Source: Theodoxus fluviatilis (Eukaryota > Mollusca > Gastropoda > Cycloneritida > Neritidae). From it: DNA of 35,000 nt. The notes below the pieces were generated by a model. The model was given only the letters and a program-made list of their open reading frames with translations, was not told the DNA's origin and made no database searches. Below, in pieces: positions 2,711 to 32,809 of the stretch. Positions within the stretch are counted from its first letter, which is position 1. Each line of letters opens with the position of its first letter. The DNA lies in contig JAWQFJ010020518.1 of the NCBI GenBank assembly GCA_034096865.1, positions 12,501 to 47,500 on the forward strand, read 5' to 3'. Both the position numbers and the translations under genes were made by a program.

Positions 2711-2728
2711 ACCGGTGCTGCTGCTACC

Positions 2729-2774
2729 CATTCTAGTAAACTAGAGATTTCGCTATACTCGGGTTTACAGAATG
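2729..2774 (-). mobile_element. Micro-element copy A, 46 bp, with 9-bp target duplication
   Basis: Seen: begins CATTCTAGTAAAC and ends GTTTACAGAATG, imperfect inverted ends. GCTGCTACC flanks it directly on both sides (2720-2728 and 2775-2783). The reverse complement shares 18 bp at one end and 24-26 bp at the other with the 60-bp element at 12540-12599; only the middle differs. No coding capacity. Inferred: a very short non-autonomous DNA transposon, or MITE remnant. A 9-bp duplication would suit the Mutator-like superfamily, but I cannot assign it. The host DNA is CTG/CTA-rich, which makes chance duplication easier here than at copy B. Confidence 0.75.
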
Positions 2775-2784
2775 GCTGCTACCA

Positions 2785-3160: not shown

Positions 3161-3349
3161 TCCACCATTCAGACTACTACTACATCAGAATCCCCCATTA
3201 CTGTCACTAGCAATTCTACCATCACCAATACTCATTCTAGTCCATCCCGTGATGGAAGGTTTTCGTCCGAAAAATTCTAATGTGGGATAGCCGATCTGCT
3301 CCCTGACAAACGCAGTTAAAGTAGTTCTAAGACTATTTCGCACGAAACT
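3161..3349. other. Stretch with no recognisable gene
   Basis: Transition from triplet-derived DNA into the left flank of the transposon at 3350. Nothing else recognised. Confidence 0.3.
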
Positions 3350-3660
3350 CAGGGGCGGACGAGGGGGTGGGGGTGGGGTGGGGGGGTTCTGAGGTTTCCG
3401 GACCCCCCCCCCCCCTTCCCCCAACAGCAAAAAAAAGTTTTACTTTGAGTGTCAATTTTTGGGGTATTCTTCAGTAACAAAATCTGCTGCCTGAAACTGG
3501 CAATAATCATCATCAGAATGCACCAGATTGCACCATTTTGCATCCTGGTTTTCAAAATTGTCCGGGGGAGCATGCCGACGGACCCCCCCACCCCCCCACC
3601 CCCCCTTGAACTAAAGTTTGGAAACACGCCAACCCCCCAAAATGAACTGATCCGCCTCTG
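3350..3660. mobile_element. Non-autonomous TIR transposon with C/G runs, copy 1 (311 bp)
   Basis: Left end CAGGGGCGGAC, right end GATCCGCCTCTG, imperfect inverted repeats. Flanks AAACT (3345-3349) and AAAAT (3661-3665) look like a 5-bp target duplication with one change. Inside are long C runs and the block GATTGCACCATTTT...GTCCGGGGG.GCATGCC.., which is shared with the copies at 8230 and 17264. Known: hAT-type transposons often have CAG-starting termini, and some hAT groups make 5-bp duplications, so hAT is my inference. No transposase is present. This copy is the most diverged of the three and lacks the TTC-loop hairpin seen in the others. Confidence 0.7.
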
Positions 3661-3899
3661 AAAATCATAACTTTCCTTTTTTAAAGGCAATAAACAAGCG
3701 TTTATTCGATAAAATAAAATGTGTTTAAATGGAAACAAGTTTTGACATCTCAATGATTTCTGTTAAAAAAAGATGGAGAAAAAAATAGTATCAAAACGAA
3801 CTATTTTTGCCGCAATGGTGTAATGCAAAAGGTCAAGTCTATTACTCATTCATTGCGAACTGTGCCAGAGTCACTATACTGACTCGGGTTCACAGAAAG
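3661..3899. other. Spacer with a possible decayed micro-element
   Basis: AT-rich DNA. At 3882-3899 the string ACTCGGGTTCACAGAAAG resembles the ACTCGGGTTTACAGAATG end of the micro-elements at 2729 and 12540, but the other end and a target duplication are not convincing. Confidence 0.3.
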
Positions 3900-6375
3900 C
3901 ATCAATACTATCACTACTACTTCCACCATTACGACAACTATTAATTCCACCATCACCATAACTATTACTACTACTTTTACCATCACCATTAGATTACTAC
4001 TACTTCCATCATCACCATTACTATCACTGCTACCTCTACCATGAGCATTACGATTACTACTACTTCCATCACCACCATTACTATCACTGCTACCTCTACC
4101 ATGAGCATTACGATTACTACTACTTCCACCATCACCATTACTATCACTGCTACCTCTACCATGAGCATTACGATTACTACTACTTCCACCATCACCATTA
4201 CTATCACTGCTACTTCCATCATCACCATTACTATCACTGCTACTTCTACCATCACCATTAAGATTACTACTACTTCCACCATCACCATTACTATCACTGC
4301 TACTTCTACCATGAGCATTACGAGTACTACTACTACCACCATCACCATTACTATCACTGCTACCTCTACCATGAGCATTACGATTACTACTACTTCCATC
4401 ACCACCATTACTATCACTGCTACCTCTACCATGAGCATTACGAGTACTACTACTACCACCATCACCATTACTATCACTGCTACCTCTACCATGAGCATTA
4501 CGATTACTACTACTTCCATCATCGCCATTACTATCACTGCTACCTCTACCATGAGCATTACGATTACTACTACTACCACCATCACCATTACTATCACTGC
4601 TACTTCCATCATCACCATTACTATCACTGCTACTTCTACCATCACCATTAAGATTACTACTACTTCCATCACCACCATTACTATCACTGCTACCTCTACC
4701 ATGAGCATTACGATTACTACTACTTCCATCACCACCATTACTATCACTGCTACCTCTACCATGAGCATTACGATTACTACTACTTCCATCACCACCATTA
4801 CTATCACTGCTACCTCTACCATGAGCATTACGATTACTACTACTTCCATCATCACCATTACTATCACTGCTACTTCTACCATGAGCATTACGATTACTAC
4901 TACTTCCATCACCACCATTACTATCACTGCTACTTCTACCATGAGCATTACGATTATTACTACTTCCATCACCACCATTACTATCACTGCTACCTCTACC
5001 ATGAGCATTACGATTACTACTACTTCCATCACCACCATTACTATCACTGCTACCTCTACCATGAGCATTACGATTATTACTACTTCCATCACCACCATTA
5101 CTATCACTGCTACCTCTACCATGAGCATTACGATTATTACTACTTCCATCACCACCATTACTATCACTGCTACTTTTACCATGAGCATTACGATTATTAC
5201 TACTTCCATCACCACCATTACTATCACTGCTACCTCTACCATGAGCATTACGATTATTACTACTTCCATCATCACCATTACTATCACTGCTACCTCTACC
5301 ATGAGCATTACGATTACTACTACTTCCATCATCACCATTACTATCACTGCTACCTCTACCATGAGCATTACGATTACTACTACTTCCATCATCACCATTA
5401 CTATCACTGCTACCTCTACCATGAGCATTACGAGTACTACTACTTCCACCATCACCATTACTATCACTGCTACCTCTACCATGAGCATTACGAGTACTAC
5501 TACTACCACCATCACCATTACTATCACTGCTACCTCTACCATGAGCATTACGATTATTACTACTTCCATCACCACCATTACTATCACTGCTACTTTTACC
5601 ATGAGCATTACGATTACTACTACTTCCACCATCACCATTACTATCACTGCTACCTCTACCATGAGCATTACGATTACTACTACTTCCATCATCACCATTA
5701 CTATCACTGCTACCTCTACCATGAGCATTACGATTACTACTACTTCCATCACCACCATTACTATCACTGCTACCTCTACCATGAGCATTACGATTACTAC
5801 TACTTCCATCATCACCATTACTATCACTGCTACCTCTACCATGAGCATTACGATTACTACTACTTCCATCACCACCATTACTATCACTGCTACCTCTACC
5901 ATGAGCATTACGATTATTACTACTTCCATCACCACCATTACTATCACTGCTACCTCTACCATGAGCATTACGATTACTACTACTTCCATCACCACCATTA
6001 CTATCACTGCTACCTCTACCATGAGCATTACGATTATTACTACTTCCATCACCACCATTACTATCACTGCTACTTTTACCATGAGCATTACGATTACTAC
6101 TACTTCCATCACCACCATTACTATCACTGCTACCTCTACCATGAGCATTACGATTACTACTCCTTCCATCATCACCATTACTATCACTGCTACCTCTACC
6201 ATGAGCATTACGATTACTACTACTTCCATCATCACCATTACTATCACTGCTACCTCTACCATGAGCATTACGATTACTACTACTTCCATCATCACCATTA
6301 CTATCACTGCTACCTCTACCATGAGCATTACGATTACTACTACTTCCATCATCACCATTACTATCATTATTTAAA
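3900..6375. repeat. 60-bp satellite array, about 40 copies
   Basis: Each 60-bp unit is two diverged 30-bp halves: ATTACTATCACTGCTACC followed by TCTACCATGAGC, and ATTACGATTACTACTACT followed by TCCATCATCACC. From about 4021 to 6366 the period holds without a single insertion or deletion; units differ only by substitutions. Because 60 is divisible by three and no unit creates a stop, the plus strand reads as 777 codons (Thr/Ile/Ser) and the minus strand as 792 (Val/Met/Ile). The variable sites often fall at second codon positions (Thr/Ile, Ser/Thr), so there is no sign of protein-level constraint. I call it satellite DNA, not a gene. The first 120 bp are a degenerate version. Confidence 0.95.
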
Positions 6376-7018
6376 CTTCCACCAATATAATTAGTTCCAC
6401 TTCCACCATCATTATTACTATTACTAGTACTTCTACCATCACCATCACAACACTATTAATTCCACCATCACCAATACCACTGCTTCCATCATCACCAGTA
6501 CTACTACTTCCACCCTTATCATTACTATTACCACCATATTCCCACCATCACTATCACTATTAATACCACGTCCATCACCACCGTTTCTATCACTACTACT
6601 TCCATCATCAGGATTATTATTGCTACTATTTCCACCATCACCACTACTACTACTTCCACCATCATCATTCCTATCACTACTACTTCAGCCATTGCCATTA
6701 CTACGATCCACCATCACCAGTACGATTACTACTACTTCCACCATCACCATTACTATTACTCCTATACATCCACATCACTATTACTATTACTCCTATACAT
6801 CCACATCACCAGTACGATTACTACTACTTCCACCATCACCATTGCTATTACTCCTATACATCCACATCACCATTACTATTACTCCTATACATCCACATCA
6901 CTATTACTATTACTCCTATACATCCACATCACCATTACTATTACTCCTATACATCCACATCACTATTACTATTACTCCTATACATCCACATCACTATTAC
7001 TATTACTACCACTTCGAT
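6376..7018. repeat. Degenerate flank and 30-bp sub-array of the satellite
   Basis: Interrupted ACT/CCA triplets to about 6735, then about nine copies of a 30-bp unit of the type ATTACTATTACTCCTATACA plus TCCACATCAC to about 7000. It is the same triplet vocabulary as the 60-bp array and probably a related expansion. Confidence 0.85.
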
Positions 7019-7605
7019 CATCGCCATTGCAGACTGCAGTCGACATGAGTTGCTGAACAAGATAGTGATAAGGTCCTCGATATAAATAAAGAAATCACTA
7101 CTTTGGTCCTAGCTATACCCCCAATCCCTGATCTTTATGGCTTTACACATGTACGAGAAATGAAAGATTTCATCCAACAACGTGGCTGCTTACGCTCGCA
7201 GCTCGATGGTTTCGACTCTCATTCCCATGTCACCATAAGTGGCGGGAATGTGGCTACAAGCGCGGCTCCCTCTGCATGGTGGCTGGCCATTAGCTCCGGT
7301 CGCATGACGTGACGGAGCTAATGTAAATCCAGGGCAGCTAGCAACCTCCTCGGTCTCTGTGGAGTTTGGAATTGCCTGCTAAGATTCAAACTGCTTCCTT
7401 GATATGATTTGGAGCAAACTGACCTCCCTCTTAGGCATATTGATGTCTTCGTGAGCAGTTAGAGGTTTGTGTCTTTTCGTGTAGATGCAAAAGAATAGAG
7501 GAGTCTATTTCCGTGCTTCCCGTGCAGCTCAGTTCAACCTCACCATCCGCATTCTTGTGGGAACCTTGCTCTCACTCACATAAACTTATTCTGCCGCCTG
7601 CGCCC
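7019..7605. other. Stretch with no recognisable gene
   Basis: Mixed-composition DNA. The short frames here carry no domain or splice context that I recognise. Confidence 0.4.
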
Positions 7606-9334: not shown

Positions 9335-11685
9335 AAGGTGGGAGGCACGCTGGGAGGTGGGTGGATGGGTGGGGTGTTGAGGATGGGAGACACGCTGGGA
9401 GGTGGGTGGATGGGTGGGGTGTTAAGGATGGGAGACACGCTGGGAGGTGGGTGGATGGGTGGGGTGTTGAGGATGGGAGGCACGCTGGGAAGTGGGTGGA
9501 TGGGTGGGGTGGTGAGAATGGGAGGCACGCTGGGAGGTGGGTGGATGGGTGGGGGTGTTGAGGATGGGAGGCCACGCTGGGAGTGGGTGGAGGGGTGGGT
9601 GTTGAGGATGGGAGGCACGCTGGGGAGGTGGGTGGATGGGTGGGGTGTTGAGGATGGGAGGCACGCTGGAGGTGGGGTGGATGGGTGGGGTGTTGAGGAG
9701 GGGAGGCACGCTGGGAGGTGGTGGATGGGGGGGTGTTGAGGATGGCAGGCACGCTGGTAGGTGGGTGGATGGGTGGGGTGTTGAGGATGGCAGGCACGCT
9801 GGGAGGTGGGTGGATGGGTGGGGTGTTGAGGATGGGAGGCACGCTGGGAGGTGGGTGGATGGGTGGGGGTGTTGAGGATGGAGGCACGCTGGGAGGTGGG
9901 TGGATGGGTGGGGTGTTGAGGATGGGAGGCACGCTGGGAGGTGGGTGGATGGGTGGGGTGTTGAGGATGGGAGGCACGCGGGGAGGTGGGTGGATGGGGG
10001 CTGGGAGGTGGTGGGGTGGGGTGTTGAGGATGGGTGGCCGGCTTGGAGGTGGGTGGATGGGTGGGGTGTTGAGGATGGGAGGCACGCTGGGAGGTGGGTG
10101 GATGGGTGGGGTGTTGAGGATGGGAGGCACGCTGGGAGGTGGGTGGATGGGTGGGTGTTGAGGATGGGAGGCACGCTGGGAGGTGGGTGGATGGGTGGGG
10201 TGTTGAGGATGGGAGGCACGCTGGGAGGTGGGTGGATGGGTGGGGTGTTGAGGATGGGAGGCACGCTGGGAGGTGGGTGGATGGGTGGGGTGTTGAGGAT
10301 GGGAGGGCACGCTGGGAGGTGGGTGGATGGGTGGGGGTGTTGAGGATGGGAGGCACGCTGGGAGGTGGGTGGATGGGTGGGGTGTTGAGGATGGGAGGCA
10401 CGCTGGAGGTGGTGGATGGGTGGGGTGTTGAGGATGGAGGCACGGGTGGATGGGTGGGGTGTTGAGGATGGGAGACACGCTGGGAGGTGGGTGATTGGGT
10501 GGGGTGTTGAGGATGGGAGGCACGCTGGAGGTGGGTGGATGGGTGGGGTGTTGAGGATATGGGAGGCACGCTGGAGGTGGGTGGATGGGTGGGTGTTGAG
10601 GATGGGAGGCACGCTGGGAGGTGGGTGGATGGGTGGAGTGTTGAGGATGGGAGGCACGCTGGGAGGTGGGTGGATGGGTGGGGTGTTGAGGATGGGAGGC
10701 ACGCTGGGAGGTGGGTGGATGGGTGGGGTGTTGAGGATGGGAGGCACGCTGGGAGGTGGGTGGATGGGTGGGGTGTTGAGGATGGGAGGCACGCTGGGAG
10801 GTGGGTGGATGGGTGGGGTGTTTGAGGATTGGGAGGACACGCTGGAGGTGGGGGATGGGTGGGGTGTTGAGGATGGGAGGCACGCTGGGAGGTGGGTGGA
10901 TGGGTGGGGTGTTGAGGATGGGAGGCACGCTGGGAGGTGGGTGGATGGGTGGGGTGTTGAGGATGTGGAGGACACGCTGGGAGGTGGGTGATGGGTGGGT
11001 GTTGAGGAGGGGAGCCACGCTGGGAGGTGGGTGGATGTGTGGGGTGTTGAGGATGGGAGACACGCTGGGAGGTGGGTGGATGGGTGGGGTGTTGAGGATG
11101 GGAGACACGCTGGGAGGTGGGGGATGGGGGGGTGTGAGGATGGGAAGGCACGCTGGAGGTGGGTGGATGGGTGGGGTGTTGAGGATGGGAGCACCGCTGG
11201 GAGGTGGGTAGATTTGGGTGGGGTGTTGAGGATGGGAGGGCACGCTGGGAGGTGGGTGGATGGGTGGGGTGTTTTTGAGGATGGGAGGCACGCGTGGGAG
11301 GGTGGGGTGGTACTGGTGTGGGGTGTTGAGGATGGGAGGCACGCTGGGAGGTGGGTGGATGGGTGGGGTGTTGAGGATGGGAGGCACGCTGGGAGGTGGG
11401 TGGATGGGTGGGGTGTTGAGGATGGGAGGCACGCTGGGAGGTGGGTGGATGGGTGGGGTGTTGAGGATGGGAGACACGCTGGGAGGTGGGTGGATGGGTG
11501 GGGTGTTTGAGGATGGGAGGCACGCTGGGCAGGCGGTGGGTGGGATGGGGTGGGGGTGCTTGAGGAATGGGAGGACACGCTGGGAGGTGGGTGGATGGGT
11601 GGGGTGTTGAGGATGGGAGGCACGCTGGGAGGTGGGTGGATGGGTGGGATGTTGAGGATGGGACCCACACTGGGCGGGGGATGTC
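9335..11685. repeat. G-rich 45-bp satellite, about 52 copies
   Basis: The unit is 45 bp: GGAGGTGGGTGGATGGGTGG, then GGTGTTGAGGATGGGAGGCA, then CGCTG. Each unit has four or more closely spaced G runs on the plus strand (GGG, GGTGGG, GGATGGG, GGGG), so nearly every copy is a potential G-quadruplex. Unlike the 60-bp array, copies differ mainly by one-base gains and losses in G runs, plus a few partial units (near 9990 and 10440). The minus-strand 748-841 codon frames (Pro/His/Ser) and many plus-strand Gly/Trp frames come from the repeat. Confidence 0.96.
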
Positions 11686-12200: not shown

Positions 12201-12539
12201 ATTGATCAGAGAGACACATATTAACATAGCGGGGGCGAACATAGCATTTGCCACAAGTGCGAAATATCTCGGGGTCATGTTAGATCAAAACTTGTCACCA
12301 GACCCCCAAATTCGTAAAATCATCTCCTCAGGCTACATGCACCTACACCGCATTTGGAGTATCAGGGATTGTCTGACTGAAAAGACTGCAGCAGCCCTGG
12401 TGGTGACTCTTGTGCTGTCCAATCTTGATTACTGCAACAGTCTGCTGACTGCTGCAACCAACGGTCAATTGCAGAGACTTCAGCGTCTTCAGAATTCTGC
12501 AGCTAGGGTAGTGAAGCGACTGCCGAGGTGGGCTCGCAT

Positions 12540-12599
12540 CATTCTGTAAACCCGAGTCAGTAGTTTGCCGGTAGGCGAAATCTCTAGTTTACTAGAATG
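12540..12599 (+). mobile_element. Micro-element copy B, 60 bp, with 9-bp target duplication
   Basis: Begins CATTCTGTAAACCCGAGT and ends CTAGTTTACTAGAATG. GGCTCGCAT flanks it perfectly at 12531-12539 and 12600-12608. It splits the LINE reverse transcriptase frame between the Arg-Ile and Thr-Pro-Val codons; omitting the insert and one duplication keeps the frame open, which fixes both ends to the base. Same family as 2729-2774, with a middle that is 14 bp longer. No coding capacity. Confidence 0.85.
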
Positions 12600-13740
12600 G
12601 GCTCGCATAACCCCTGTGCTCAGTGACCTTCATTGGCTTCCAGTTCGCCAACGGGTGGAATTTAAGACCCTCTCCATCGTGTTTAAGTGTGAAACTGGTT
12701 GTCGCGAGCAGGTTGCAGGTTTGGGGGCGGGGTAATTTTCGTGTTCGTGAGCTTGTGTGTGCATGCTCGGCGTGTAGTGTGTTTGTAGCGCGTTAGCGCG
12801 CTCCTCGTCCGCGCTTTTCGCTGTTTCACGTGAGGGGTGACGAGGTGAGTAAACTCTGTGCGCCCTCGCACGGGATTTGCGAGGCCGGCAGGGGTGAACG
12901 CACTGCTCGTTGGATTTTGGGGAAGATTGGTTTTGGAGAGTCAGATGCTAACTTGTGAGCATAGAGGCAACATCGCTGTTGTGGTGGTTGCCGGAATTGT
13001 GGTGAGACCGCTGTCGACCCAGTGCGTGGCGTGCCTACTGCCAGCCCAGAATCGTTAGCGACTGTATTGTCGTTGTCGGCGTAGGCCGAACAGAACCATC
13101 ACCAGGGGAAGGGCCGAGTTTCTTCCATGAGAGTATTTGTTTGTGTGTAAATGTCTTTGTGGAAGTTTTCACTAGGTTGTTAGTCTGTTGTTCTATGGGT
13201 GGGTGGGAAGTTGAAATAGGCAGTATAATTTTAGAACCAGTCGGTTGTCGTTCATTCATTTGCCTTGTTTCCAGCTCGCCTCATTTGCATCATGTCATGG
13301 TTCGTGGTAGGTTTGCTGTTGTTTGGATTTGCTTGATTTGGTTAAAAGCTAAATGCTCGAAATGGCTCTAGTTTGAGGCTAAGGCTAGGACTGTGTTTTG
13401 AATGAGTGCCGTCATTTCGTTACGGTGGAATGGCTATTTCCAGTTTAGTGGGGTGTAACAGTTTTGAGTTGGGATTTGTGTGCCATGTGTTATGCCATGT
13501 ATGCTAATTCTGGCCATTTAGGCCTGTGTGGATTTTATGTTTCACGACCGTCATCGTCCAAGGTCCTCGTGGCTCCTCATCGCTGTCGTCGTCATCAACT
13601 GCCGCTCATTCGTCCTCGCATCCCTGACAGTGCTTGATGCTCATCACCTTGAGCTCACCTGGTCCAGGGGAAGGTCGACTTTCAGCGTCACCTTGGTTCT
13701 TCATCTCCGTTCTGCGGCCTGTCGCAGAAGGCCGCCATGT

Positions 13741-31160: not shown

Positions 31161-32809
31161 TTATGCCAAAGTGTACATTATTTGGACTCTTTTGGTGTGT
31201 GCTTCTTGAGCTATTGCCCCCTCTTGTTCTGTGATTACACTGCTGATCTCTTCTACAATGATGTCTGTTTCATCAAAGGACTCTTTCTGCAGAATGAAGT
31301 TATGTAGCACACAACAGGCTGTGATAACTTTGGGCATGTCTCTAGTTCTCCTCATGTCTAAGTTGATCAGACGCCTGAATTTTCCCTTTAGGAGACCAAA
31401 AGCACGTTCTATGTCTACTCTGGTGGAGCTATGCAGCTGGTTGTACTTTTTCTCTTGTGGCGTCAGATGGCCATTGTCACGAAATGGATTCAAGAGAAAC
31501 GTGGTCAACCCATATGCTGAATCCCCCAGCAAATGGAAATTGTTTGGAGGTGGATTTGCTCGCAGATAAGAATAGAGGGGACTGGATTTGAACGCGCGTG
31601 CGTCATGGACAGACCCAGGGTAGCCACAATAGATGTCAAGGAAACGCAGATGGCTATCACAAACACCCTGCAAATGAAATGCAGGATATCCTTTCCTGCA
31701 AATGAAGGAGTTGCGGAAGTCAGAGGGGCCAGTGATGGGAATGTATGTTCCATCAATGGCACCAATGACCCCCGGAAAACCTGTGCGTGCACTAAATGCA
31801 TCTGCAATTGCAGCATACTGTCGTGGTGATGGCCATGAGACCAATTCTGGAAGAAGTGTTCCTGACAGGATGTTGCAGATGTTCATCAAGCAATAGTGCA
31901 ATGATCCCTTGCTCATTCCAAATCTGTCAGCCACACCTCTCAAACTCTCTTGGTTGCTCAAACACCAGAGTGATGCCAGGGTCCTCTTCTCCAGGCTGAT
32001 GGTTCTTGCTGGGGTATGTGGACCAAGAAGTTCCAAAAGATCCTGAAAATAAAATGAAAAGATTGTTACACTTTTCAAAAGATATCATCAGTCATACAAA
32101 ATCATTAAATTGCTAACTTGATTACAATTCTTGTTTTTCAAAGTGTTGGGTCTTTGAACAAAATATTTATGCTTGTAAATTGTCAAGTTGGAATTGATCT
32201 TGTAAGTAGGGTGACCCTGGGTTATTTTCACCTCTAGGAGAATGAGTGGCTAGCTCCATGCCAGAAAGTTGGTTCACTTTCTTTGCTAGCTCATTACAAA
32301 TTTTCATTATTAGTTAAACTCAAAGATGACAGGACAGGCACAGCTACTTTCCTTTAGCAGTAATTTATATTTTAAGATTACATCTTTCAATCATATCAGC
32401 AGTCCACATTTCAGGGAAAGGGCATGCACACATTCTAATGATGTGCTACAATCCAGACTTTTGCTGTCAAGTTAATGTATAGATTTATTTAGTAGTCAGA
32501 CCTTTGAATTTCTGGAAGATTTGTAATGGCATTGAAAGGATTTTGTAGACTTGCAGCTTTCTGTTAGTTATGATTTGTTTCTTCCCTTTTCAACTTTATT
32601 ATTGGTTTGAAGAACAAATGTTTGTTAGTTATTGAATTCTGTATCAAAACATGTTTTCTACACTGTCTCTAAAATGTTTTATGCACACTTCATTTAGCAC
32701 ATAAAACTGCAGTTGTCAGATGTCTAGGTATTACAGAAAGATAGCTAATAGTGATGGAGTGGTTGAGGTTTGTGTGAGTGTGTGTGTGAGTGAGTGTGTG
32801 TGTGTGTGA

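Follow-up and report, generated by a model that had tools for sequence, protein, structure and literature searches.

A 60-bp insert lies between two identical 9-bp repeats and interrupts a reading frame in the stretch of Theodoxus fluviatilis DNA analyzed here (35,000 nucleotides, hereafter the window), and a 46-bp relative is present in the same window. These inserts raise the questions of whether sequences this short are transposons, how they came to consist of little more than two ends, and whether they have moved in this form. The reading preferred here, with a probability of about 0.68, is that MITEs have been cut to near-bare ends several times and that some of the products then moved as short elements. 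The 60-bp insert would accordingly be a non-autonomous cut-and-paste DNA transposon (MITE) that has been reduced to its two ends.

Two micro-inserts and an older relative in the window

Both inserts described in the earlier note were located (Table 1). The 60-bp insert has base-exact ends and a perfect 9-bp duplication, and the 46-bp copy, which is in the opposite orientation, has a perfect 9-bp duplication of its own. Direct comparison also reproduced the reported extent of similarity between the inserts, which match exactly over 18 bases on one side and 25 bases on the opposite side; their middles measure 17 and 3 bp. When the window was searched with the right-end 16-mer, allowing up to three mismatches, the two matches obtained were these two inserts; a mean of 0.23 matches is expected, and two matches were reached in 1 of 100 shuffles. 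By eye, the 46-bp copy resembles a 59-bp copy (L104) minus 13 bp.

Table 1. Positions of the micro-inserts, their target-site duplications and the older long copy in the window
Feature	Position	Strand	Details or basis
Left target-site duplication GGCTCGCAT of 60-bp insert	12531..12539	+	sequence
60-bp micro-MITE	12540..12599	+	left end 12540-12557, middle 12558-12574, right end 12575-12599
Right target-site duplication GGCTCGCAT of 60-bp insert	12600..12608	+	sequence
Target-site duplication GCTGCTACC of 46-bp copy, one side	2720..2728	+	sequence
46-bp micro-MITE, 3-bp middle	2729..2774	-	opposite orientation to 60-bp copy
Target-site duplication GCTGCTACC of 46-bp copy, other side	2775..2783	+	sequence
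Old, decayed copy of 417-bp family	3233..3900 (approx.)	-	84% over 242 bp, 93% over 70 bp

The 60-bp insert was also described as splitting a LINE reading frame. The frame is open across the site once the insert and one duplication are removed (...KRLPRWAR on one side, ITPVLSDLHWLPVRQR... on the other), and the insert adds a stop to it. The putative LINE identity of this frame rests on HITPVLxxLHWLPV, a motif of CR1/L2-type elements, as a Pfam search with the 79-aa left part of the frame returned no match.

The old long copy listed in Table 1 is a third relative of the family in the window and was overlooked in the earlier note. It holds an insert of ~310 bp, the flanks of which were identified by eye as ACCAATACT and ATCAATACT. 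This insert (window 3350-3660) has the ends CAGAGGCGGA...TCCGCCCCTG, presumably hAT-like, and a relative in L005. The window also contains large tandem arrays at 3927-6366 and 9339-11674, with 60-bp and 45/135-bp units, and a stop-free frame of 307 aa for a PIF/Harbinger-type transposase (PF13359) on the minus strand at 31161-32084. Among the 120 of 957 matches listed for this transposase, the best named homologues are molluscan.

Copy number, size classes and transposon hallmarks

The distribution of the family was examined in the 965-Mb genome (19,668 contigs). The exact 18-base right end is present 1,823 times (904 + 919), while the reversed control is present 0 times. In a similarity search with the insert and its flanks, in which the ends were not presupposed, 40 of 1,141 candidates were scored, and most of these matches ended at, or only a few bases away from, the insert ends, indicating that the motif is not part of a longer repeat.

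A catalogue of 102 copies (48 short, 54 long) was assembled by searching via the ends with few errors allowed. Two of the 48 short copies, L084 and L088, are one insertion with common flanks, and both were counted. Left out before counting were L001 and L008, which show copies already represented by other rows, L049, whose element and 12-bp left flank are those of L048, the copies cut by N (L075, L090 and L091), and the nested copy L094. Since the first 42 short copies were chosen mostly by likeness to the 60-bp query, two further samples were taken. The second sample, which required the full right 40 bp and was ranked by chance flank similarity, gave 36 new loci: 26 long copies (404-421 bp), 6 short rows that represent five insertions of 59-73 bp, 3 copies cut by N and 1 nested copy. 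The third sample consisted of 21 right ends taken in contig order, with long copies recognized by their interior and not by measured size, and gave 12 long copies, 6 short copies (44, 46, 58, 62, 66 and 68 bp) and 3 others. Three previously read ends had been omitted from it (C7, long; C26, 61 bp; C35, 59 bp); with these restored, the first 24 right ends in contig order comprise 13 long, 8 short and 3 unclassified. Scaled roughly, some 500-600 short copies are expected among the 1,823 right ends.

Overall, the copies are either 44-73 bp or 382-421 bp in length, and none of the 102 catalogued copies has a size between 73 and 382 bp. The most common short sizes are 61 bp (22 of 48) and 64 bp (11), followed by 60 and 66 bp (three each), 58 and 68 bp (two each), and 46, 59, 62, 67 and 73 bp (one each). 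Among the 54 long copies, 35 are 417 bp, with the remainder at 410 bp (six), 416 bp (four), 412, 414 and 419 bp (two each), and 382, 404 and 421 bp (one each). The many genomic copies of 44-73 bp support the earlier suggestion of a family of near-TIR-only elements. Several loci have unusual arrangements. In L122 and L126, ~39-41 bp of the right end adjoin unrelated DNA, and these are either truncated or longer elements. The right end of L125 is tandemly duplicated together with its flank, 176 bp apart. Contig C11176 appears to contain an inverted duplication, as its 417-bp copies L048 and L049 share a 12-bp left flank and lie ~7 kb from each other in opposite orientation.

An exact CATTCT start and AGAATG finish are found in 44 of 48 short and 53 of 54 long copies. 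Both ends carry CATTCT(A)GTAAAC terminal inverted repeats, which are imperfect further inward. Duplications of 9 bp with 0-1 mismatch, for which the earlier note had proposed to test other genomic copies, flank 45 of the 48 short copies and 52 of the 54 long copies (chance ~1e-4 per copy). The short exceptions have a perfect 10-bp duplication (L022), three mismatches (L016) or no visible duplication (L041), and the long exceptions have two mismatches (L025, an old copy) or a perfect 10-bp duplication (L082). L112 has no target duplication. Additionally, an empty site was found for the 61-bp insert L013, which is flanked by GGCCAAGAC; the repeat copy L009 contains one GGCCAAGAC and no insert, and the flanks of the two are 97% and 91% identical. 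The ten bases past the empty site in L009 resemble the element start by chance.

Short and long copies have the same target preference, as judged from copies with no more than one duplication mismatch (45 short, 52 long). The first duplicated base is G in 41/45 short and 46/52 long copies. Outside the duplication, G or C is found at -3 (40/45 and 49/52) and at +3 (38/45 and 43/52), G or T at -4 (39/45 and 45/52), and A or C at +4 (42/45 and 43/52). These flank preferences are mirror-symmetric, and the mirror C of the duplicated G is absent as a preference (15/45 and 14/52). The common target preference suggests that one transposase served both forms, or served the long form alone if the short forms arose by deletion in place. 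Both forms have several features of MITEs: they are short (417 and 44-73 bp) and non-coding, have a high copy number and inverted repeats, and are flanked by duplications of constant length. It is practically certain that these inserts were made by a transposon.

The 417-bp parent and the origin of the short forms

The earlier note proposed a search for a longer, autonomous element with the same ends. A longer element does exist, in many copies, as a non-coding form of 417 bp; an autonomous one was not found in the four MULE loci and the long copy (L105) that were inspected. The long family is young, as 50 of the 54 copies, about half of them chosen by similarity, differ by less than 3% from the consensus. 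The short copies correspond to the 417-bp form without its middle, and the ends, duplication and target preference are common to both. The 60-bp insert in the window, for example, is composed of the left 24-25 bp and the right 35-36 bp of the parent.

The 48 short copies contain 22 middle sequences; 13 of these, accounting for 38 copies, join two parts of the parent exactly, with no filler. In these 13 junction types the left part ends at 18-29 and the right part starts at 376-386, with 0-3 bp of microhomology, and the commoner junctions tend toward more microhomology. The other nine middles fit the parent more loosely and reach slightly further. The 44-bp copy from the contig-order sample (L128) retains only ~14 bp of the left end and ~30 bp of the right end. 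In another short copy (L118), which has its own perfect duplication, GTGAAC and GAAGTC are those of an older subfamily also represented by L025. It is very probable that the short forms arose repeatedly via internal deletion.

Structure prediction for the parent strand identifies the left break zone as the loop of GAGTCA-GTAGTAT-TGACTC and puts the right break zone on the 5' side of a second hairpin. The small indels of long copies are likewise concentrated at the left stem-loop: of 25 indel rows, 15 begin at 15-30, and by eye, ~6 of 16 indel classes fall within 16 of the 417 positions (p = 2e-5).

These features suggest a mechanism in several steps. A transposase supplied in trans, presumably with DDE chemistry, would recognize CATTCT...AGAATG and make a staggered cut of 9 bp, at clearly preferred targets, into which the element is inserted. 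Next, the young 417-bp MITE would lose its interior through breaks in two narrow zones at the subterminal stem-loops, which may themselves cause the breakage, and the broken ends would be rejoined with 0-3 bp of microhomology. This loss would have occurred several times over, with the older subfamily included. Finally, some of the short forms would have transposed as such, with their middles still changing.

The last of these steps was probed with a marker and with a shared middle. Near the left end, CCAGAG (in place of CCCGAG) is found in 5 of 11 independent short copies from the later samples and in 1 of 26 long copies from the second sample (Fisher p = 0.005, for a marker selected after the data were seen). 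The p value is 0.003 when L128, the left end of which is too short to score, is excluded, and 0.06 within the second sample alone (2/5 short vs 1/26 long). CCAGAG is present in 1 of the 42 first-sample short copies, which were mostly chosen by likeness to a CCCGAG query. Furthermore, L084 and L101 share the middle CAGATAGATA, which is not a direct parent join, and have different duplications. The CCAGAG enrichment, the presence of CAGATAGATA at two sites, and the older-subfamily copy L118 with its own duplication support movement as short elements, and a substantial share of the short copies has probably moved in this way. Counting against the preferred reading are the copies with no duplication (L112, L041) or a poor one (L016) and the lack of these ends in the stretches fetched around four MULEs. 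Movement as short elements is also weakened by the very diverse junctions and by the tendency of the commoner ones toward more microhomology, both of which would be expected from the deletion of each copy after insertion.

This diversity is the starting point for the account in which deletion takes place in situ: insertion of a 417-bp element creates the 9-bp duplication, end joining between the two stem-loop zones afterwards removes the interior, and the short form never jumps. The absence of filler and the 0-3 bp microhomology in the 13 exact junction types fit this account, as do the indels of long copies at the left stem-loop and the identical target preference of short and long copies. 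However, it does not readily accommodate the enrichment of CCAGAG in the later-sample short copies or a middle as complex as CAGATAGATA at different insertion sites. Several junctions also recur five to eight times in the similarity-chosen sample, which speaks against separate deletions, although favorable microhomology could also explain this recurrence. Taken together, deletion in place appears rather unlikely. It is more doubtful still that the element, within its own cycle, brings about the reduction from 417 to ~60 bp; the transposase, or a structure-specific nuclease acting during transposition, would then cut both subterminal stem-loops and discard the interior, such that near-bare-end transposons of one size class would be continually re-made and then move.

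It is also conceivable that a nested mobile element makes up the inner ~350 bp and departs from the long form. The ~60-bp forms would then be empty sites with footprints, containing one TA in the 64-bp form and two in the 66-bp form. The 64- and 66-bp forms do fit a TA target duplication (CAGTAGTA joined to CTTTTGCC and CAGTAGTA joined to TACTTTTGCC). However, all of the best 40 of 2,430 candidate parent matches (query included) have the outer ends, both outer and inner parts are present in copies as old as L025 and the one in the window, and the short copies of 44-59 bp are cut outside the supposed inner ends, making this explanation highly improbable. An origin by chance or slippage within a LINE and a microsatellite gains some appeal from the trinucleotide-rich DNA that surrounds the 46-bp copy, but it is refuted by the counts of exact right ends relative to the reversed control, by the duplications of the short copies and by the empty site.

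Transposase source and comparison with known systems

A target duplication of 8-10 bp, typically 9 bp, is the rule in the Mutator/MULE superfamily, and the ends of MULEs usually begin differently from those of the CATTCT...AGAATG family. The 9-bp duplications observed here fall within the Mutator/MULE range and for this reason suggest Mutator, an assignment for which the odds are even. MULE transposases are abundant in the genome (at least 150; 150 scored of 333 candidates). Stretches of 5.0-5.8 kb around 4 of the 150 scored matches contain no copy of these ends, and none of the four MULE families was shown to be a partner; such ends may lie beyond the fetched stretches. The family resembles Mutator-like (MULE/Foldback) MITEs in its 9-bp target duplication and inverted-repeat ends, and differs from them in that no MULE carrying its ends was seen in the four fetched stretches. 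A candidate long autonomous copy (L094/L105; 2,048 bp with a perfect duplication) proved to be a 417-bp element with two nested inserts. In L105, the nested element at ~6150-7274 has long inverted repeats (TCAAAGATTATAGGTTACACAAAGATAG...), is flanked by TATAT and contains an exon that we take to be THAP-like.

No exact right end was found in viral and prokaryotic contigs, and an Rfam search returned no match. A literature search with the end sequences returned no paper, and the family was not recognized in the titles and abstract openings of literature on short and 9-bp MITEs, MITE size and MADE1.

Mariner elements target TA, and the duplications of the present family are 9 bp and not of this type. 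Among the nearest parallels is MADE1, described as an 80-bp MITE of the human mariner Hsmar1 that consists of two 37-bp repeats and 6 bp (PMC1784062). A Mos1 study states that DNA under ~90 bp is hard to bend, names 80 bp (human) among the smallest mariner MITEs, and explains 80-bp mariner MITEs by transposase-driven bending; a 122-bp element was found to transpose, and 80-120 bp was concluded to be sufficient (PMC2642840). The short copies resemble MADE1 in being near-TIR-only and non-coding, with many copies, little room between the ends and a longer relative with the same ends (PMC1784062, PMC2642840). In contrast to MADE1 as described, they are 44-73 bp in length, retain unequal ends, have many different middles, and are accompanied by a still-abundant non-coding 417-bp parent. 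The micro-MITEs described here are shorter than the 80-bp MADE1, have a different target and coexist with an abundant longer parent.

Some likeness is also seen to Introners, which are short, resemble DNA transposons and are flanked by repeats of 3-9 bp (PMC9860276). Introners are spliced out at many genes. The genomic sequence of the present family gives no sign of splicing, and at least one of its copies (L013) is inside another repeat. One 61-bp copy (L015, 4905-4965) follows an exon-like frame at what resembles a 5' splice donor, and the sequence that it duplicates is AGGTAAGAT; such an arrangement could create an intron.

If the 44-73 bp copies, which have clean 9-bp duplications, moved as such, they would lower the limit on end bending and would provide a natural series of minimal substrates that retain ~14-32 bp on the left and ~25-48 bp on the right. 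The two size classes, together with the many junctions, make the origin of MITEs directly testable. Should the loss of the interior be part of the element's own cycle, both ends would move within a single stiff stretch of DNA well under 90 bp.
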